From positions 1 to 64,000 of the forward strand of contig JAIETR010000002.1 of assembly GCA_019745075.1 (NCBI GenBank): DNA of 64,000 nt. The letters run 5' to 3'. Below, in pieces: positions 3,514-54,249 of this stretch. The stretch's first letter is position 1. The number at the start of each line of letters is the position of its first letter. The position numbers and the translations under genes are program-made. Source of the stretch: Qipengyuania sp. Lineage in GTDB: Bacteria > Pseudomonadota > Alphaproteobacteria > Sphingomonadales > Sphingomonadaceae. Below the pieces are notes generated by a model. The model had not been told where the DNA came from. It did no database searches and saw nothing but the letters and a program-made list of their open reading frames with translations.

Positions 3514-6500
3514 ATGTCACGCTCATCCCCCGCCTTTGCCTTTCCCGATTGCAGCGAGCCGCCGGTCTTGTCCGCAGCCCGCGAGCTTGTTGGCCTCATC
3601 GAGGCAGAGGAGGTGGTCTCTCGCGCGCGGCTCAATGCCGTCCTCAGCGATGAATTTGGCGGGACCGATGCCGATGGCCGCTGGTCGGTGCGCGACGCCC
3701 ACGCGGCGCTCGAGCTCGCCCAGGTGCTGTGGCTGCGCGATAGCGCTGGTCTGACTCCGGCTTCGCCAGCCGCCGCTGCTGACGCAGCGTTCGCCCGGCC
3801 CGAGGCACTGCTGCCGAGCCATACCGTGCGCAGCGAGGAGCAGATCGAGCTGCAGCAATTCGCGACGCCGCCGCGTATCGCCTGGCTTCTCGCACGCGCC
3901 TGCGCCCTTCGTACGGGCGAAGCCGTCCTCGAACCGTCGGCCGGCACGGGCATGCTGGCGATCTGGGCGGCGAAAGCGGAGGCGCGCCTGATCCTCAACG
4001 AGATATCGCCGCTGCGCCGCAACTGCCTCGGCCTCCTGTTCCCCGACGCCGAGGTGAGCGGTCACGACGGCGAGCTCATCGACGAGCTGCTCAACCCGCT
4101 TCACGTGCCGAGCGCGGTACTCGTCAACCCGCCCTATTCGGAAGGCATCGAGCGCGGGCACGACGGGCACACGGGCGCACGGCACTTGCGTTCGGCCTGG
4201 AAGCGTCTCGCCGCCGGCGGCCGGATGGCTGCCATCATGCCCGAGTGGTTCGACGTGCATCGGTTCCTCGCCGCCGTCCGAGAACCGGTCGCGCTGCACC
4301 TTAACGTCACGGTGGAGCGTGCTTTCGCGAGGCACGGCACTTCGATCACCACGCGCCTGCTGATACTCGATAAGACCGAAGGAGGAGCAGAGCCGGTCGT
4401 GGCTCGCGCCTGCGACTTCCGCGCGCTCTGCGAACTGGTCGACGCGATACCGGCACGGCCGCTGCTAACTTCGCCGAAGCCGTCCGGCACCTTGCCCGGG
4501 CTTGCTCCGTTCCGGCTCGCGGGTCTGGTGACCAGGCCGCGCCCGGTTACGCCCAAGCCCATGGCGGCGGCGCTTTCCAGCGAGCCGTGTGTCTACGAGG
4601 CACTCGACGTCCCGGCTCCCATCGCCGAGCAGGTCGGGCACTACTTGCCCTATCGGCCGAGCCGGATCGCGATACCGGGCACGACCGAGCATCCAACGCA
4701 GCTGGTGGAATCGGTCGCGATGGGCTCGATCACCGCGCCGATTCCGACCGAAGTTCCGCAGCTTCCGGCAGAGGTCATTGCTCGAGGCCTGCTCTCGGCT
4801 GCCCAGGCCGAGACGCTGATCTACGCAATCAGCGCCCACGCGCGCGACCTCCCCGGCCGCTATATCCCGCAGGACAAGGGCTCTTCGCTTGCGCCGAGCC
4901 CGGAGGGCGTCGCCTACCGCATGGGCTATTTCCTCGGCGACGGCACCGGGGCCGGGAAGGGGCGCCAGGTCGCCAGCGTGATCCTCGATCGTTGGCTCCG
5001 CGGCGAACAGCGCCACATCTGGATCTCGAAGAACGAGGCGCTGCTCGAGGACGCGCGCCGCGACTGGTCGGCGCTCGGTGGGCTTCCGATCGACATCCAG
5101 CCACTGGGCCAGTGGAAGCTCGGCCAGGAGGTGACGATGCGCGAGGGTATCCTGTTCGTCACCTATCCGACGCTGCGCTCGGGCAGGACCGAGGCCACCC
5201 GGCTCGACCAGATCCTCAAATGGGCCGGTGATGACTTCGAGGGCGTGATCGTGTTCGACGAGGCTCACGCGATGGCCAATGCCGCAGGCGGTGAGGGCTC
5301 GCGCGGCAAGGTCAAAGGCTCCGAGCAAGGTGTCGCCGGCGTCCGCCTGCAGAACCTGCTGCCGCGCGCCCGCGTCCTCTATGCCTCGGCCACCGGTGCG
5401 TCCGACGTCAACAATCTCGCCTATGCGACACGGCTTGGCCTCTGGGGTCCAGAGACGGCGTTCGCAAACCGCGAAGCGTTCGTGAGTGACATCCGCGAGG
5501 GCGGCATCGCAGCGATGGAGCTGGTTGCGCGCGACCTGAAGTCTCTCGGGCTCTACACGGCCCGCGCGCTGTCCTTTGCCGGCGTCGAGTACGAGATCCT
5601 CGAGCACAAGCTTACCCCTGAGCAGATCGCGGTCTATGATGCCTATGCGGAAGCTTGGGCGATCATTCACGCCAATCTGCGCGAAGCGCTCGAAGCGACC
5701 CGGATTGTCGACGCGGACAGCGGCGACACGCTCAACAGCGGCGCCAAGTCCGCTGCATTGTCGATCTTCGAAGGCACGAAGCAGCGCTTCTTCGCCCAGC
5801 TACTGTTGTCGATGAAACTGCCGAGCATGCTGCCCGCGATCGAGGGGGCGCTGGCCGATGGTAACGCTGTCGTGGTCCAGCTGGTCACCACGGCTGAAGC
5901 CATGCTCGACCGGCGTCTGGCGGAGCTGTCGGACGAGGAACGCGAAGCGCTTGAGATCGACCTTTCCCCGCGCGAATACGTAATCGATTATCTTGCGAAG
6001 AGCTTCCCGGTCCGCCTGATGGCGGTGTTCACCGACGAGAACGGCAACCCTCGCTCCGAGCCCATGGTCGACGATGAGGGACGTCCGGTGCTGTGCCGTT
6101 CGGCCCTCGCGGCACGGGACCGGATGATCGAGCAGCTCTGCGCTCTGCCGCCGATCGCCACGGCGCTGGATGCGATCATTGAGCGGTTCGGTGTCGAGCA
6201 GGTCGCCGAGGTGACCGGACGGAGCCGGCGGCTGATCATCGGCCCGGACGGACGACAGAAGCTCCAGCCGCGCAGTCCACGCTCAAACGTCGCCGAGACC
6301 CAGGCCTTCATGGACGGCGGCAAGCGCATCCTGGTCTTCTCCGACGCCGGGGGCACGGGCCGCAGCTATCACGCCGACCTCTCTGCCAGGAACCAAGCCC
6401 GGCGCGTTCACTTCCTGCTCGAGCCCGGCTGGCGCGCCGATGCCGCGATCCAGGGGCTGGGGCGCACGAACCGCACCAACCAGGCCTCGGCGCCGCTGTT

Positions 6501-48466: not shown

Positions 48467-49111
48467 CTACTGTAGCGCGCGGCCGAACCAAAGCACCCGT
48501 CCGACAATGTTGATGCTGCGACGCTCGAGGCCCCGCCAGCTCGGATAAGCCGGGTTGTCGCTCACCACGGAAATCCTGCGGCCCTGCGGCTCGATCGCGA
48601 TCCGCTTCACGTTGAGCGCGTCGTCCATGCGAAGGACGTAAATACCGTCGCGCAGCCGCGATTGGCCATCGCTAAGATCGATCATGACCTCATCGCCGTC
48701 GTGCAGGGTCGGCTCCATCGAATCGCCGTGCACGCCGATGATGGAGAGGCTCGAGGCCTTGCTGGCGGTCAGGCGACGCAGCCACTTGTCGTCGAATCCG
48801 AACTGGGCGCACTGCGATTCCATCTCGGCAAGCGCTCCGTGACCGGCGGATGCCTCGACGTTGATCACAGGGACGTGGACGAGTTCGACCACAGGGCCTG
48901 AGCGGTAGGAAGGGGCTCCGAGGACAGTCTCATCGACCCCGAAAAATTGGGCGAGGATGGCGCGGTCTCGCTCGTCTAGGTTACGCGGGCTGCCTCGCCG
49001 AATATACTGCTGGATATAGGCAGCATTGCGACCCAGCAGGCGCGAGATCGAGGCATAATTGTGACGCCCTTTATGGATCAGTTCGTCCAGCGCTGCCCGT
49101 GCTTCATCCAT
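48467..49111 (-). CDS. S24-family repressor (LexA/CI-like)
   Basis: A 214-aa repressor. The N-terminal HTH (about 5-65) has NYASISRLLGRNAAYIQQYI. The self-cleavage-type region is VEASAGHGALAE. The S24 peptidase domain (about 75-214) shows the catalytic Ser in IGVHGDSMEPTLHDGDEVMI and the Lys in DALNVKRIAIEP. Proteins like this hold phages and ICEs silent and are inactivated through RecA* during DNA damage. A perfect 17-bp palindrome lies 36 bp upstream, ahead of a small divergent gene, making a CI-like switch plausible. RecA-triggered cleavage is inferred. Confidence 0.9.
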   Translation of the reverse strand: MDEARAALDELIHKGRHNYASISRLLGRNAAYIQQYIRRGSPRNLDERDRAILAQFFGVDETVLGAPSYRSGPVVELVHVPVINVEASAGHGALAEMESQCAQFGFDDKWLRRLTASKASSLSIIGVHGDSMEPTLHDGDEVMIDLSDGQSRLRDGIYVLRMDDALNVKRIAIEPQGRRISVVSDNPAYPSWRGLERRSINIVGRVLWFGRALQ

Positions 49112-49832: not shown

Positions 49833-50228
49833 TCAACGGGACAGCCTCTCGCGTGTCCAAGCAAAGAGGCGGGCCCACCACGGTCGCTTCGCGCGACCTT
49901 GAAAATGGCGCGAACGGCGGGCGGCTTCCCGGTTCCGTCCGCGCGCAATCTGGGCAGGGGTCCAAGCCGGAGCCCACTCAATGGCACCATCCGAGATGAC
50001 GTAATGAGAGCGGCACGGAAATTGCCAGTTGCCGATTGAAGGCCAGAGGCTCGGCCCATGCGCGCCTGCGCTTACCTCCCACTCGGTGGGTCCCAGTGGA
50101 GTGCGGACTTTGCGACCGCAAGCGCACGCACACAAATGTGCCGCCGTCTCGAATTCTCGCGAAACGTAGAGCACCCCAGGCTCTAGATTGGCCGGTATCG
50201 ACCGGACTTCCTCAAGCCGCATGCGCAT
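49833..50228 (-). CDS. DUF6527-type cysteine-cluster protein
   Basis: A 131-aa protein (ATG 50228; ATG 50222 two codons later is also possible). It has a zinc-site-like cluster: HLCACACGRKVRTPLGPTEW, then WQFPCRSHYVISDGAIEWAP. A basic, Trp-containing tail ends RLFAWTRERLSR. This fits the DUF6527 family, which I recall beside ThiF/multi-ubiquitin genes. Its start overlaps the E1-like gene end by up to 17 bp, so it is translationally coupled to it. A substrate-binding, E2/E3-like or effector role is unknown; zinc binding is inferred from the CxCxCG...C pattern. Confidence 0.75.
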   Translation of the reverse strand: MRMRLEEVRSIPANLEPGVLYVSREFETAAHLCACACGRKVRTPLGPTEWEVSAGAHGPSLWPSIGNWQFPCRSHYVISDGAIEWAPAWTPAQIARGRNREAARRSRHFQGRAKRPWWARLFAWTRERLSR

Positions 50229-51411
50229 CGAACCCGGTCTCTCCCACCGACGACAAGTCGTTGATCGCGAACAGCAGGTGCTTGTAGGCGGCGTCCTCGC
50301 GATAGAAGCCGCGGAGCTGTTTGTAGCGCACCAGCGCCAGCGCTGCATTGATGGCATTGAGCTCGCCGATCTGAATATTGGTGCGATAGAGATCGGCGGG
50401 TCCGTCGTTCAGCTCCGCCAAGCCGAGCTGCATCATCGCCTGCGCCTCTTCCGCCGGATAGTGCGTCACGCGGAGCATCCCGGCGAGTCCGTCATGCTTG
50501 CGTTTCAAACCCATGCCGACGTCGATGAAGGCAATACCCAGCTCGGTGAGCACCGTGAAGATCGCGGCGCGGGCGGATCCCTTATCGACGCAGACGAAAG
50601 CAAAGGTCACGCCTTCGAGCTCGGCGCGCGAGGTCTCATCGATGTAGATCGGTTTGAGCGTGAGCCCATGACGGAAGTGGGCGTAGCGCTCGCGGTAGAC
50701 GTCGGCCTTGAACCGGCCGAGCTCGCGCTCGTCGAGGCGTCCGGGCGAACGAAAGCTCGTGTGGACGTGGAACCGGTCGCCGTCGAACCCGCGGATCTCG
50801 CGGACCGGTGTCTTGACGAGGCCATCGAGCAAATGGCCGCCCGTTCCCCCTAGGCCAATAATCGCGACGACATCGTTCTCAAGCTTCGCGGTGAGGTCAC
50901 CGATCTGAGCGCGGCTGGTGAGCGTATCCTGAAACTTGAACACCGAATGGTCGGCAACGGTCTCGCAAACGCGGAAGGTGAACGGATTCGCCGCGTATTT
51001 CTCGATAGCGGGCCCGCCGATGATAGCGACATAGCTCTCAATCTTGTCAAAGAAATCGGCGAACCGGCCCGTGATCCGCGGCTTGTTCGAGAAGGACCGC
51101 TCGACCACAACGTCGCTGCATGCTGCCGAGAGCTGAATCGTGGCGGGGCCGCCACCGAGGTTGCGGATCGCCTGCCCATCGAGTCCATGCGGCAGCGAGC
51201 CGGCGAAATAGACCTGGTGATCGTCCTGCTCGACGCGTTCGCGGTCGATAAAGACGAGCTTGGTGACGAGCGCGCCCCACGCGAGCGTGCCCGTCTGATC
51301 GAGATAGGGGACATCGCGAACGATCAGGCAATTGCTGTCGAAGGCGATCGCGTATCCCTTGTCGGCCAAGCGGCCGAGGTCGGGATTACGACTGACCAGT
51401 TTCCGATACAT
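50212..51411 (-). CDS. ThiF/E1-like adenylyltransferase with N-terminal extension
   Basis: A 399-aa protein. Residues about 165-330 form a ThiF/E1 Rossmann domain: ATP loop VVAIIGLGGTGGHLLDGLVK, then REIRGFDGDRFHVHTSFRSP, the Asp/Arg pattern expected for acyl-adenylate chemistry, and a later FAFVCVDKGSARAAI strand. The N-terminal roughly 130 residues (MYRKLVSRNPDLGRLADKGY, LTKLVFIDRERVE) resemble the DUF6791 extension of ThiF proteins, sometimes regarded as E2-like, but I see no clear catalytic Cys there. ATG 51411 overlaps the ubiquitin-like gene by 26 bp. It would activate the small ubiquitin-like partner. Confidence 0.85.
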   Translation of the reverse strand: MYRKLVSRNPDLGRLADKGYAIAFDSNCLIVRDVPYLDQTGTLAWGALVTKLVFIDRERVEQDDHQVYFAGSLPHGLDGQAIRNLGGGPATIQLSAACSDVVVERSFSNKPRITGRFADFFDKIESYVAIIGGPAIEKYAANPFTFRVCETVADHSVFKFQDTLTSRAQIGDLTAKLENDVVAIIGLGGTGGHLLDGLVKTPVREIRGFDGDRFHVHTSFRSPGRLDERELGRFKADVYRERYAHFRHGLTLKPIYIDETSRAELEGVTFAFVCVDKGSARAAIFTVLTELGIAFIDVGMGLKRKHDGLAGMLRVTHYPAEEAQAMMQLGLAELNDGPADLYRTNIQIGELNAINAALALVRYKQLRGFYREDAAYKHLLFAINDLSSVGETGFDAHAA

Positions 51412-51640
51412 TGAAGAGCATCCCCTCCTTGACCTTGACGCTCGCGCCTGGCGAGAGCGTCCCTTCCGGCTTGTTGCCCTGCCCGCGCTTGTAGAGCACG
51501 GAATAGGTAATTTCGGGGTGCTGCGCATAATCGGGCACCTCCAGGGTCACGACTTCCGCGTAGCTGATGTCACCCTTGGGCCACTCGTGCTCGGTGCCTT
51601 CGACGATGATCGTTACGGTCTTTTTGTCGGGTTTCTTCAC
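51386..51640 (-). CDS. ubiquitin-like protein (multi-ubiquitin domain type)
   Basis: An 84-aa protein consisting of a single beta-grasp-like domain: TVTIIVEGTEHEWPKGDISY, AEVVTLEVPDYAQHPEITYS, VLYKRGQGNKPEGTLSPGAS and VKVKEGMLFNVSETGQS. The order fits the bacterial Multi_ubiq family (PF14452). The C-terminus ends ETGQS without a Gly-Gly, so conjugation would need trimming, an unusual linkage or no covalent transfer. It is 26 bp overlapped with the E1-like gene and 11 bp after the 46-aa gene, in one operon. The family assignment is from sequence pattern and neighbours. Confidence 0.8.
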   Translation of the reverse strand: MKKPDKKTVTIIVEGTEHEWPKGDISYAEVVTLEVPDYAQHPEITYSVLYKRGQGNKPEGTLSPGASVKVKEGMLFNVSETGQS

Positions 51641-51651
51641 GAGCTAAGCTC

Positions 51652-51792
51652 CTACTTCTTGGTGCGGTTGGGACGCTGGGTCAGCGCCGACGCAGCCGCC
51701 GTCCTGGCGGCCTTGCTCGAGCGCGGATCGCGCAGGACCTTGGATGCGGCGCTGGCAGCGCGGGCGCTGGTCACTTCGGATTTACGTTTCAT
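51652..51792 (-). CDS. 46-aa Ala/Arg-rich protein, first gene of the ubiquitin-like operon
   Basis: A short but convincing gene: MKRKSEVTSARAASAASKVL, RDPRSSKAARTAAASALTQR, then PNRTKK. The same Lys/Ala/Ser-rich pattern is common in alphaproteobacteria as a small conserved protein of unknown role. ACCGGAG lies 4 bp before the ATG. A well-spaced promoter (TTGACT-17-TATCTA) is about 55 bp upstream. It precedes the ubiquitin-like gene by 11 bp. It could be a DNA/RNA-binding or target peptide of the system; this is not established. Confidence 0.7.
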   Translation of the reverse strand: MKRKSEVTSARAASAASKVLRDPRSSKAARTAAASALTQRPNRTKK

Positions 51793-51844
51793 GGCATTCA
51801 CTCCGGTTGCTTGGCAGGCCTCCTGATGATGGCACCCGGATAGC

Positions 51845-51873
51845 TAGATAATAGCCGTAATATAGCTAGTCAA
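51845..51873 (-). promoter_or_regulatory. promoter of the ubiquitin-like operon
   Basis: On the minus strand TTGACT (51873-51868), a 17-bp spacer and TATCTA (51850-51845) form a sigma-70-like promoter for the operon starting at 51792. The spacer contains ATAGCC and TAGCTA, elements of the symmetric operator. Confidence 0.7.
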
Positions 51874-51880
51874 TGGCTAT
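51851..51880. promoter_or_regulatory. symmetric operator, ATAGCC-N6-TAGCTA-N6-GGCTAT
   Basis: ATAGCC (51851-51856) and GGCTAT (51875-51880) are reverse complements placed exactly around the palindrome TAGCTA (51863-51868). A second TAGCTA is at 51841-51846, and ATGGCTA repeats at 51873-51879 and 51884-51890, 11 bp apart. RHH regulators typically bind such arrays. It covers the minus-strand promoter and ends 17 bp before the plus-strand -35. Confidence 0.7.
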
Positions 51881-51897
51881 TGCATGGCTAATTTTTG

Positions 51898-51926
51898 TTG
51901 ACATGGCCTCCACCTGACGTTATCTG
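51898..51926 (+). promoter_or_regulatory. promoter of the RHH-GNAT pair
   Basis: A consensus -35 TTGACA (51898-51903), an exact 17-bp spacer and TATCTG (51921-51926). The RHH start codon is at 51948. The operator array lies directly upstream. Confidence 0.75.
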
Positions 51927-51947: not shown

Positions 51948-52163
51948 ATGAACGACAAGCGGACTATGACGCTGAACCTCAGCGCCATTGAGATGGACAT
52001 CGTCGAGAAGCTGGCCGACGAGAAGGGTCTGTCGAAGACCGCGCTCGTGCGCCAGGCCCTGCGCCTGTACCAATCGATTTCGGATCGTATCGCGCGAGGT
52101 GAAAAGGTGTTCGTGGAAGACCCGGCGACCAAGGACAAAGCGGAACTGATGGTCCTGAGCTGA
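51948..52163 (+). CDS. ribbon-helix-helix regulator/antitoxin
   Basis: A 71-aa protein with an N-terminal RHH fold: beta strand RTMTLNLSAIEMDIVEKLAD, then KGLSKTALVRQALRLYQSIS. The C-terminus has the shape of an antitoxin tail (GEKVFVEDPATKDKAELMVL). It is followed 10 bp later by a GNAT-like acetyltransferase, the order used by GNAT toxin-antitoxin pairs such as AtaRT/TacAT. A consensus promoter with a symmetric operator lies upstream and would suit autoregulation. It could equally be a plain regulator. Confidence 0.75.
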   Translation: MNDKRTMTLNLSAIEMDIVEKLADEKGLSKTALVRQALRLYQSISDRIARGEKVFVEDPATKDKAELMVLS

Positions 52164-52173
52164 GTCCACGCGC

Positions 52174-52806
52174 GTGCTCGATAAACCGCTCGCGACATTC
52201 TCGGTTGTCGATCGGGAAACGAACACACCCACGGCGCTCGAGCTGTGGAGCCCGATCGCCAAACGGCACAAAGATCAATTCGTGAAGCAATGGCGCCCCA
52301 TCTTCGATCGCCAGCTCGACGAGATCCGGGCCAAGGGCGGGAATGTCGACGAAGTTGTCCAGATGCGCATGATCCAGGATGCACACTGGCAATGGGCAAG
52401 CAAGGCCGATGCCCTCGAGGGTCGGCTGGACTGGGTGTCTTTCGCGCTCGAGGGCCAGGGCGTCGCGCAAGGCTTGATGTTTGCGCAGACGGCAGGGTTT
52501 GCGAAGGAAGCGTCACAGAAAGGCAAGCCGCTCGTAAAGGTCGTGCTGCTCGCGAGCGCACCGTGGAACCGGCCGACTTTGGCCGCTGTTCCTCGCTTCA
52601 AGAGCATCGGGCGGATTCTGCTCGGCGCGGCGATCTCCCTTAGTTTCCATGAGGAGTTCGCCGGGCGCGTAGGCCTACACGCCCTACCTCAGGCCGAGAC
52701 CTGGTATCGCGACGTTTGCGGGATGACCGACCTCGGGGTCGACGGCACGGGCATGCGGTATTTCGAAACCACCGAGGACCAGGCAAAAGCCTTCCTCGCA
52801 ATTTAG
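52174..52806 (+). CDS. GNAT-like acetyltransferase, RHH-linked
   Basis: A 210-aa protein starting at GTG 52174, 10 bp after the RHH stop. The acetyl-CoA site is suggested by RFKSIGRILLGAAISLSFHE and the following GRVGLHALPQAETWYRDVCG, where GNAT motif A/B and a conserved Tyr would fall. The N-terminal half (IAKRHKDQFVKQWRPIFDRQ, HWQWASKADALEGRLDWVSF) is helical. It is longer than usual GNAT toxins (about 160-180 aa). It may be a toxin paired with the RHH antitoxin, or an ordinary acetyltransferase. No catalytic test is possible from sequence. Confidence 0.65.
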   Translation: MLDKPLATFSVVDRETNTPTALELWSPIAKRHKDQFVKQWRPIFDRQLDEIRAKGGNVDEVVQMRMIQDAHWQWASKADALEGRLDWVSFALEGQGVAQGLMFAQTAGFAKEASQKGKPLVKVVLLASAPWNRPTLAAVPRFKSIGRILLGAAISLSFHEEFAGRVGLHALPQAETWYRDVCGMTDLGVDGTGMRYFETTEDQAKAFLAI

Positions 52807-52820
52807 GAAAGGAGCTCGAG

Positions 52821-53324
52821 ATGGAAATCCTCATCTCTCAGGATTGGCTCCAGCGCCGGATCGACACGGACCCCATCGTCGATACCGATGCAGGAGCGCC
52901 GATAATGATCCTTCAGGACATCGGTATGTTCTTGTCGCCCGAGCTTTGCGGCGACAATCCAGAGCGTAGCGACCGGCTCGCGCACAGCTTCGGCGTGCTC
53001 GTTCGCCAACTACGACGACGCGACAGTCTGTCGATCGAAGATCTGGCTAAGAAGGCGCGGATCGACCCCGAGGATCTACGCCAAGTCGAGCACGATCCGC
53101 ATTACCGGGCCAAACCCCGGCTGATCCACCAACTCGCGGGCGTGTTCGAGATTCCGGAGCGATCGCTGATGGTTCTGTCCGGAGCCATGGTCGCCAATGA
53201 CAATGCGCTCGAGGAGGAAGCCGAACGGTTCGCGGCAATGAGCGACGATATGTCGAAACTGACCCGGGACGAACGGCGCTTGCTGAATGATTTCGTCAAG
53301 TTCCTGTCGGAACGGGTCCACTGA
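52821..53324 (+). CDS. XRE-family transcriptional regulator
   Basis: A 167-aa protein. An HTH_XRE domain lies in the middle (about 60-115): SFGVLVRQLRRRDSLSIEDL, AKKARIDPEDLRQVEHDPHY, then LAGVFEIPERSLMVLSG. A helical C-terminal tail follows. ATG 52821 has AAAGGAG upstream. An ImmA/IrrE metallopeptidase follows 7 bp later. XRE repressor plus ImmA is a known ICE and prophage control pair in which the peptidase cleaves the repressor. It may regulate the adjacent transfer or toxin genes. Confidence 0.88.
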   Translation: MEILISQDWLQRRIDTDPIVDTDAGAPIMILQDIGMFLSPELCGDNPERSDRLAHSFGVLVRQLRRRDSLSIEDLAKKARIDPEDLRQVEHDPHYRAKPRLIHQLAGVFEIPERSLMVLSGAMVANDNALEEEAERFAAMSDDMSKLTRDERRLLNDFVKFLSERVH

Positions 53325-53331
53325 GCGAAAC

Positions 53332-54249
53332 ATGCTTATCGGGCAAGTCGGTGAATACGAGGCGAGCGATATCGAAGCCATCGTCACTCGCCTCCTGAAG
53401 GACCTCGGAAATCCCGAACCCCCGCTCGATCTGGAATCGGTGCGCCGCCAGCTCGATCTCGATCTCAAATACTACAGCTCTAACGATGTCGGCGTGTTCG
53501 ACGAGGTGGCCCACCGGTTGAAAATGGCCGGGAAACAGCTGTTCGACAAACCCACGGCACTCTTCGATGCCATCCGTAAGGCCGGCCTTTCCGCCTTGTG
53601 GGTTCCCTCATCGCGGCGGATTATGATCGACCAGGAGGTGCCCCAGCCCAAACACCGCTGGATCGAAGGGCACGAGATCGGACATAGCCTGATCCCATGG
53701 CACCGTGAATTCCTCTTCGGCGATGACAGCGTGACCCTCGACCCTTCGTGCCATGCGACGGTCGAGGCGGAAGCGAACTTCGCCTCGGCGCGGTTGCTCT
53801 TCCTCCAAGAGCGCTTCGGCGCGGAAGCCCGCGATTGCGACTTGGACTTCGACACGATCAAGATGATGGCCAAGCGTTACGGAAACACTCTGACCTCGAC
53901 CTTTTGGCGGATCGTCGAAGACAGGGAGCCCGATCGACCGGTTTTCGGTATGATGACCGCCCACCCTCGCCATCCTGACATCGGGACTGGCGAGAATGGC
54001 GAGACGATCCGCTACTTCATCCGATCGAAGGCATTCCGCGAGAAATTTGCCGGGTTCAGCCCCGAGCAGGGCTACGCGCTGATCGAGAAACATGCGACCG
54101 GGCGAAGGCGGGGACCGGTATTCGAAGAAACGGACACGATCATCAATGACCGTGATGAGCCATGCGAGTTCTATTTCGAAAGCTTCTGCAACGCCTATAG
54201 CTTGCTCACGGTCGGCTCATTCTTGGGTCAGCGAGGAATCACCGTCTAA
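53332..54249 (+). CDS. ImmA/IrrE-family metallopeptidase
   Basis: A 305-aa zinc metallopeptidase. The N-terminal part is helical (ASDIEAIVTRLLKDLGNPEP). The HExxH motif is HRWIEGHEIGHSLIPWHREF near residues 103-122. VEAEANFASARLLFLQERFG follows and contains the third zinc-ligand Glu. The C-terminal half (about 200-305) is unassigned, making it longer than minimal ImmA. In ICEBs1-type elements ImmA cleaves the XRE repressor ImmR upon a signal. It lies 7 bp downstream of an XRE gene, so the same relation is likely. Confidence 0.9.
   Translation: MLIGQVGEYEASDIEAIVTRLLKDLGNPEPPLDLESVRRQLDLDLKYYSSNDVGVFDEVAHRLKMAGKQLFDKPTALFDAIRKAGLSALWVPSSRRIMIDQEVPQPKHRWIEGHEIGHSLIPWHREFLFGDDSVTLDPSCHATVEAEANFASARLLFLQERFGAEARDCDLDFDTIKMMAKRYGNTLTSTFWRIVEDREPDRPVFGMMTAHPRHPDIGTGENGETIRYFIRSKAFREKFAGFSPEQGYALIEKHATGRRRGPVFEETDTIINDRDEPCEFYFESFCNAYSLLTVGSFLGQRGITV

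Follow-up and report, generated by a model that had tools for sequence, protein, structure and literature searches.

How bacteria control costly immune operons is an open question, and several small controllers have been described that bear on it. CapH and CapP were reportedly characterized by Lau et al. in 2022 as controlling CBASS, Bub, and further immune operons, and CopG, a repressor of the RHH type, controls plasmid copy number. PMC13373217 presents CapH as a repressor that DNA damage releases, with CapP as its peptidase, both encoded beside immune operons. The same paper describes CapK-CapS, and PMC9122588 describes CapW/BrxR, as swappable controllers next to immune operons. RptR, the repressor of type I R-M islands, recognizes the palindrome TAGCTA, which a defense promoter carries as three tandem repeats, according to PMC12255303. 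We analyzed a 64,000-nucleotide stretch of DNA (the window) in which two operons diverge from a short gap. From sequence comparison, we consider it quite probable that this gap is the operator-promoter region of a portable RHH-GNAT-CapH-CapP cassette, in which RHH would coat an operator array and shut off the divergent defense promoter, while CapH-CapP would link the switch to DNA damage.

The gap spans 155 bp, from the start codon of a 46-aa minus-strand ORF (ending at 51792) to the RHH start at 51948. This length and the two promoter-like hexamer pairs within the gap are as the first-pass annotation gave them and were rechecked by coordinate. The first gene on the plus strand encodes a 71-aa CopG-type RHH DNA-binding protein (51948..52163; model pLDDT 87), the predicted array binder, which matched Pfam RHH_1 at 23.6 bits (cut-off, 20.5). 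The best PDB sequence match to this protein was CopG (E 4.6e-6; entries 2cpg, 1b01, and 1ea4 are CopG/RHH repressor structures). HU proteins headed its first Foldseek list at E >0.05, and a second fold comparison was topped by RHH proteins. The next gene (52174..52806, plus strand) encodes a 210-aa GNAT-fold protein of a divergent subfamily with APWN and GR motifs (model pLDDT 94). It had no Pfam match, and a PDB sequence search with the GNAT profile returned two matches, both at E >0.3 and neither of them a GNAT. Its model matched GNAT enzymes over nearly the whole length (Z up to 13.7), and 13 columns, including Tyr178, were invariant in 41 aligned GNATs. These two genes are followed by a CapH-like HTH repressor of 167 aa (52821..53324, plus strand; PADLOC capH, E 5.3e-9) and a CapP-like ImmA/IrrE metallopeptidase (53332..54249, plus strand; PADLOC capP, E 1.3e-13) with an HExxH motif, the residues of which (H114, E115, and H118) were invariant in 14/14 sequences. 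The window thus matches both the capH and the capP profile of the CapH+CapP controllers. The first-pass annotation had suggested a layered defense, and this idea appears strengthened, since the two genes after GNAT resemble the DNA-damage pair CapH-CapP.

On the minus strand, the gene nearest the gap is the 46-aa ORF (51652..51792), for which no Pfam or NCBIfam family was found. The ubiquitin-like gene comes next (Multi_ubiq; 51386..51640, minus strand; Pfam E 6.4e-15) and is the first large gene of the operon predicted to be controlled. It is followed by an E1-like protein with DUF6791 and ThiF (50212..51411, minus strand; with the start set at residue 40 on the basis of the NCBIfam alignment, whereas the mechanical ORF extends to 51528) and, as the third gene of this operon, a DUF6527 protein (49833..50357, minus strand; Pfam E 1.7e-21; a mechanical ORF with a provisional start). 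The locus thus holds the ubiquitin-like protein and ThiF E1 of Bub-type cargo, and we take the set of Multi_ubiq, ThiF, DUF6791, and DUF6527 to be what authors call Bub. The 46-aa ORF, which heads the ubiquitin-like operon, is rich in Ala, Lys, Arg, and Ser, and a motif scan of the loci described below found it elsewhere only in L020 (7703-7852). Beyond the ubiquitin-like operon, at 48467-49111, lies an S24 peptidase-type (LexA-like) regulator, possibly a further damage-responsive regulator nearby.

Sequence and conservation both point to an operator array (51841..51890, no strand) of five TRGCYA-like 6-bp sites set at exact 11-bp steps in one register. The sites are TAGCTA at 51841, TAGCCG at 51852, TAGCTA at 51863, TGGCTA at 51874, and TGGCTA at 51885. 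A symmetric operator had been proposed earlier in the form of the 30-bp palindrome ATAGCC-N6-TAGCTA-N6-GGCTAT. This palindrome is indeed exact at 51851-51880, and 100 shuffles of the window gave 0 matches with up to 3 mismatches, but it comprises array sites 2-4 plus one flanking base on each side and is only part of the unit. The single large palindrome was rejected as the operator unit because five in-phase sites account for it.

The predicted promoter of the ubiquitin-like operon (51845..51873, minus strand) has a -35 of TTGACT at 51873-51868 and, 17 bp away, a -10 of TATCTA at 51850-51845. Array site 1 overlaps its -10, sites 2 and 3 fall in its spacer and -35, and site 4 directly adjoins the -35. 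The predicted promoter of the RHH operon (51898..51926, plus strand) pairs TTGACA at 51898-51903 with TATCTG at 51921-51926, also over 17 bp, and its -35 begins 13 bp past the start of site 5. The minus-strand -10, TATCTA, is weak in the window, and a promoter scan of the window, which accepts a -10 only if its sixth base is T, flagged neither promoter. Both are predicted from conservation in relatives rather than from the window alone.

These repeats and promoters could be accidental features of an AT-rich gap, and the failure of the promoter scan to flag either promoter is consistent with this, as is the finding that TAGCTA alone is not rare across the window (4 found, 1.95 expected). However, the three-site TRGCYA pattern (11-bp steps, up to 2 mismatches) matched the organism's own 3.02-Mb genome only at this gap, with 0-1 mismatches; a reversed-letter control gave 3 matches per strand, so that an isolated 2-mismatch match means little. 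Because the operator is exact, short, and present nowhere else in its genome, it is directly testable and could become a tool to find new defense operons.

Conservation of the array was assessed upstream of RHH homologues. A tblastn search with the RHH gave 19 plasmid records, 17 of which were examined (the remaining two share an organism with examined ones), and the best 80 of 202 RHH relatives supplied the genome loci. The resulting 98 cellular loci, namely the window, 17 plasmid loci (L003-L019), and 80 genome loci (L020-L099), were chosen by RHH similarity, which favors cassette members. L046 was left out for its short upstream sequence, leaving 97 loci, and removal of 6 near-duplicates left 91. 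All 17 plasmid loci had TRGCYA-like sites at 11-bp multiples upstream of RHH, with L006 and L019 the weakest. An array score was calculated for each spacing as the highest total of matching bases over three TAGCTA sites (maximum, 18). At 11-bp spacing, the score was at least 14 in 59/97 upstream regions, at least 15 in 51/97, and at least 16 in 37/97; with near-duplicates removed, 55/91 loci scored at least 14. Spacings of 8, 9, 10, 12, and 13 bp gave 0/97 at this threshold, and 14 bp gave 1/97. Among 4850 shuffles, 3 (0.06%) scored at least 14 and none reached 15. An earlier random-stretch control that did not exclude the gap itself had given 1.05% at 14 or more, and the recount on stretches away from the gap gave 0/4850. 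The distances between exact TRGCYA sites peaked at 11 (78 pairs), 22 (44), 33 (24), 44 (10), and 55 (6). Scores were below 14 in 38/97 loci, and 12 had no in-phase exact site. The nine loci of viral RHH relatives (L100-L108) had no array.

Promoter geometry was compared in the 91 non-redundant loci by aligning rows that hold a site and, after it, a TCAA-like word; a few of the placements look like chance. One consensus was shared by 48/91 loci: a divergent -35, TTGACT, between two sites, two sites in the spacer, and a -10 like TATAT (read by eye from the consensus) approximately 17 bp from the -35. The -35 of the RHH operon lay 13-14, 24-25, 35-37, or 46 bp past the start of the last site in 64/66 loci having both elements, and the RHH promoter of the window has this same phase to the array. 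In L026 and L070, the sites sit in the spacer of the RHH operon's own promoter; the genes after the L026 cassette are co-oriented with it and include a Beta_protein gene. Taken together, the alignments suggest that the array blankets the cargo promoter and ends short of the cassette's own promoter. The shuffle counts for palindrome and array, the uniqueness in the genome, this promoter geometry, and conservation of the array across several phyla all contradict accident. An accidental promoter-rich gap was rejected on the shuffle, random-stretch, and locus-conservation results, and we regard chance as almost certainly the wrong explanation. The geometry also bears on the earlier proposal that loss of RHH would free both operons, which is not supported as stated, as the array stops upstream of the RHH operon -35. 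Autoregulation of RHH is possible, but it would be different in kind from cargo repression because the array covers the core of the cargo promoter and only reaches a point upstream of the RHH operon -35.

Gene content was counted in the 90 loci with 3 kb of downstream sequence. RHH followed by GNAT, CapH, and CapP, with all four genes present, was found in 78/90 loci. GNAT came after RHH in 88/90, the other two being without GNAT; CapP was undetected in 12/90, and one locus (L007) had RHH alone. The genome loci belonged to Pseudomonadota, Planctomycetota, Acidobacteriota, and six other phyla, and many were metagenome bins. When 385 genomes of the window's class were searched, RHH and GNAT were found in the same two, one of which was the window's own.

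The cargo divergent from the cassette varied widely. It included ubiquitin-like/ThiF operons, Bil-like operons (with a BilD match at 3e-9 in L006), CBASS cyclases with SAVED, AAA, or Cap17-like genes (L008, L061, and L043), a type I R-M system (L077), a NurA-HerA-like pair (L052), and an OLD-like ATPase (L098). The cargo of L067 was an MBL-type gene with a sub-threshold Pfam match, for which the best PADLOC match was PDC-M48B. In L004, L005, and L068, the first divergent cargo gene was a DUF2188 gene, and YegP is presumably a DUF2188 protein. A YegP-like gene has been reported next to a CapK-CapS controller in PMC13373217. No defense cargo was recognized in several loci.

A tree was built from concatenated cassettes of 70/98 loci, which have all four genes near full length and were left after five near-copy loci, including L020, had been taken off by hand. 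Cargo changed at least 9 times on this tree, counting labeled cargo and leaving out unknowns. The label Bub denotes a ubiquitin-type ThiF profile match anywhere in a locus to which no earlier rule applied, and it includes L019 and L086, in which ThiF lies downstream. The labels CBASS (L043 and L061), Ubl-JAB, MBL, RM, and HerA were set by hand before later profile checks; the MBL label of L068 was assigned by eye, and some cargo was first taken from record annotation. The window formed a group with L021 and L024, both ubiquitin-like loci, and this group was joined next by L003, L022, and L023, which have an operon with a JAB-like gene. These comparisons indicate that RHH-GNAT-CapH-CapP is probably a portable control cassette beside varied phage-defense operons, and it looks like a reusable on/off switch. 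Because the cassette fronts many operon types with mostly one operator code, one set of experiments would address many defense systems.

RHH is the likely reader of the array. This assignment draws together locus L007, the CapH-CapP loci without RHH, a co-change of RHH strand and operator, and CopG as the closest solved sequence. L007 has RHH and ubiquitin-like cargo with no detectable GNAT, CapH, or CapP, and its array is kept (score, 16). Five CapH-CapP loci found via CapP (L121-L125), four of which face a ubiquitin-like gene, had no RHH or GNAT profile match; the absence of RHH was first taken from record annotation and then checked with the profile. None of the five had an array, there being no exact TRGCYA site in 220 bp and no array score >10. 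L120, which has CapH-CapP, co-oriented ThiF cargo, and no RHH or GNAT match, had no array in the 420 bp before the gene at 3709 and was left out of this count because the placement of its promoter was uncertain. TAGCTA was present upstream in 75/90 loci with the RHH strand [KR]TMT[LI]NL and in 0/7 loci with the strand QMTL[IVM]L, all with Bil-like cargo, while a GGCC-type site was found in 7/7 of the QMTL[IVM]L loci versus 42/90 others. The seven QMTL[IVM]L loci come from six records (L006 and L032 being on the same record) and form one clade (Bil), so strand and operator changed together in a single event rather than in seven, and the Fisher p of 1e-5 overstates this association. These comparisons support what the first-pass annotation had proposed, namely that RHH may bind the repeats and repress the divergent ubiquitin-like operon: the array tracks RHH rather than CapH or cargo, the operator differs in the clade with an altered RHH reading strand, and the sites fall within the cargo promoter.

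The other candidate reader is CapH, in which case RHH-GNAT would be an ordinary, self-regulating toxin-antitoxin passenger. CapH is found in most loci and is the DNA-binding repressor of the published CapH-CapP systems, as given in PMC13373217. We nevertheless consider it very unlikely that CapH reads the TRGCYA array, given an array with no detectable CapH in L007, the lack of one at the five CapH-CapP loci with no RHH profile match, and an operator altered in the clade in which the RHH strand is changed. CapH as the array binder was rejected on L007 and L121-L125. By eye, no separate conserved CapH operator near the RHH promoter held across clades. L121-L124 face ubiquitin-like genes, and 3/4 of them repeat a TCAAGCA-type word in the gap (by eye), which is a candidate CapH operator.

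With RHH as the likely array reader, the role of GNAT can be considered. We infer, with less confidence, that the role of GNAT is to set the switch or to arrest growth when induced. If RHH-GNAT were a type II toxin-antitoxin of the TacAT/AtaRT/KacAT kind, freed GNAT would block translation, and the pair's own operator would have captured a defense promoter. The RHH and GNAT genes are adjacent or overlapping, AtaT was first in the GNAT Foldseek list, GNAT aligned with TacT3 at Z 13.2 (rmsd 2.8 over 154), and the best fold matches of RHH include such antitoxins (TacA1; Z 6.6, rmsd 1.6 over 52). GNAT-RHH pairs were also tabulated as TA-like in PMC2701414, which judged them more likely to be resistance genes than true TA. 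However, the fold ranks tie with those of unrelated GNATs, and since toxins tie with other GNATs, the fold rank of GNAT gives no function; the antitoxin matches of RHH are likewise ties among many RHH proteins. DUF1778 was absent among the Pfam matches of the window RHH up to E 1, RHH occurs without GNAT in L007 and L098, and the six GNAT homologue loci examined outside the cassette are without a cassette-type RHH in the stretch covered. In one of these, L109, a 92-aa protein just upstream of GNAT could by eye be a different RHH. The median pI of 41 GNATs was 5.8 (range, 4.9-9.2; window, 6.9), and a pI near 5.8 would be unusual for tRNA-binding toxins. We therefore view a toxin-antitoxin role as possible but doubtful.

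Five of the six non-cassette GNAT loci are cyanobacterial and one is from Azospirillum; in the cyanobacterial loci, GNAT is directly followed by a different protein. Plasmid records with this cyanobacterial GNAT-partner protein numbered 32; a by-eye comparison placed a GNAT match in 24 and none in eight. Adjoining same-strand matches were seen in 20 of the 24, and the other four list other places. The GNAT subfamily beside a small protein on cyanobacterial plasmids (L109-L112 and L114) may be a separate two-gene module. In L111, GNAT and the small protein lie between a DNA methyltransferase gene and the DISARM drmD gene.

The CapH proteins of the cassette share an N-terminal tag. A start of approximately 28 aa was conserved in the 89 cassette CapHs with a placeable start, and the tag in the window (52821..52904, plus strand) is a divergent member, related to a stretch of phage proteins. 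Of 80 distinct versions, 78 keep Trp9 and 79 keep the GAG-motif Gly, the profile having been built from the same sequences. The tag was not seen in four canonical CapHs (L121-L124) or in the CapH-like protein of L120, where scores were at shuffle level. In L109, L110, and L111, the protein that follows GNAT has a tag-like start that scored above 200/200 shuffles with a 58-aa profile, as did the start of the IrrE-type protein in the same position in L026; L114 was beaten by 3/200 shuffles, and L112 and L113 were negative. The resemblance in GNAT-following proteins outside the cassette is only suggestive because a shorter 34-aa profile finds none of them (L109-L114 at E 0.01; L026 at E 1).

These tag-like starts directly after GNAT, the presence of GNAT in nearly all of the loci counted, and the lysines K4, K26, K30, and K64, invariant in 20/20 aligned RHHs (none from the Bil clade), are in line with an acetylation-gated switch, in which acetylation of RHH or the CapH tag by GNAT would set repressor affinity. 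We consider such a switch fairly unlikely, given the negative result with the 34-aa profile, a tagged CapH without GNAT in L098, and the lack of a GNAT match in the phage stretches examined. That the tag is confined to GNAT loci was rejected, as tagged phage stretches had no GNAT match and L098 is tagged without GNAT.

The resemblance of the tag to phage proteins, in contrast to that outside the cassette, is strong. When the tag profile was run against 14,309 ORFs, a phage ORF was matched at E 2e-10. A DNA pattern written from the tag, which therefore selects for it, found 27 stretches on 26 viral contigs. The viral ORFs of these stretches carry the tag at E 1e-9 to 3e-16 (extracted ORFs) or 2e-7 to 4e-13 (six-frame segments), and it lies within the first 16 residues in 23/27 proteins and further in for L132, L139, L146, and L148. 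The bodies of the tagged phage proteins are unrelated: they may be cysteine-rich, helical, or RHH-strand-like, and some proteins have almost no body, as with L152 and L155, which at 47 and 44 aa are little more than tag. No GNAT or CapP was matched at E 0.01 in these stretches, which are parts of contigs. Across the 385 class genomes, tag profile matches were listed only in the two with the cassette, and the 34-position profile used can miss members. A PHROGs search with seven tagged phage proteins gave one weak match of unknown function. Against named phages, tblastn with the CapH tag peptide gave no match, and tblastn with a phage tag gave weak matches (E 0.01 to 4) to Caulobacter phages CcrColossus and CcrPW and Burkholderia phage FLC10. 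The viral contig of L104/L131 encodes an RHH relative and, approximately 0.8 kb on, a tagged protein with RHH-strand-like sequence. No description of the tag was found among the literature matches listed.

The tag is a putative shared docking or processing peptide, and the meaning of its link to phages is a lead, not a result. If it is a recognition peptide on which CapP or GNAT docks, tagged phage proteins could either trigger the switch by competing with CapH or be phage mimics that jam it. We regard this proposal as speculative and rather improbable, the more so as the link of the tag to GNAT outside the cassette proved weak, which does not affect the phage link; if true, phages would themselves make the peptide that gates immune control. 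A tag common to CapH and phage proteins offers a concrete and testable phage-to-switch link.

The comparisons establish the array, its geometry and conservation, the cassette, the exchange of cargo, and the tracking of the array with RHH at the level of sequence. From these, we infer RHH binding, repression, and filament formation. The two-stranded beta ribbon of each RHH dimer would dock on a single 6-bp TRGCYA palindrome, and the 11-bp spacing of the sites would align the dimers along one face of the DNA. The filament formed over the divergent -35 and -10 would keep the defense operon off, in this case the ubiquitin-like conjugation operon. Its other end would stop just upstream of the cassette -35, so that the cassette would remain on or be mildly modulated. 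CapH and CapP would make up a second, damage-sensing layer, in which DNA damage would activate CapP, CapH would be cleaved, and repression would be relieved. The route by which CapH-CapP might relieve the RHH block is proposed with less confidence than the rest.

Compared with known systems, the cassette is most like the CapH+CapP controllers, having an HTH repressor and an ImmA/IrrE peptidase beside diverse immune operons with presumed release by DNA damage. In those controllers, CapH binds the promoter of the neighboring immune operon, and CapP cleaves CapH upon ssDNA. The cassette differs from them in that genes for RHH and GNAT precede the pair, its operator, a TRGCYA array with 11-bp steps, tracks RHH rather than CapH, and CapH has an N-terminal tag that is missing from the four canonical CapHs scored. 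CapK+CapS and CapW/BrxR are likewise swappable controllers, but their protein families differ from those of the present cassette. The operator word is the same 6-bp palindrome, TAGCTA, that is recognized by RptR; however, RptR is all-helical with 9-bp repeats, whereas the cassette has an RHH fold and 11-bp spacing, and 0/97 loci reached 14/18 at 9 bp. This looks like convergence of the two on one operator word. As is typical of RHH repressors, short palindromic sites lie in tandem over the predicted target promoter. CopG has the same RHH fold, but the target predicted here is a defense promoter. TacAT, AtaRT, and KacAT are similar in gene order, with RHH directly before GNAT, and in folds; here, in contrast, RHH has no DUF1778 match, and the pair is part of a four-gene cassette. 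No description of a four-gene RHH-GNAT-CapH-CapP cassette was found among the literature matches listed, although it may have been mentioned before. Control by CapH-CapP is already known, and the RHH-GNAT layer, the operator code, and the tagged CapH constitute an added variant of it.
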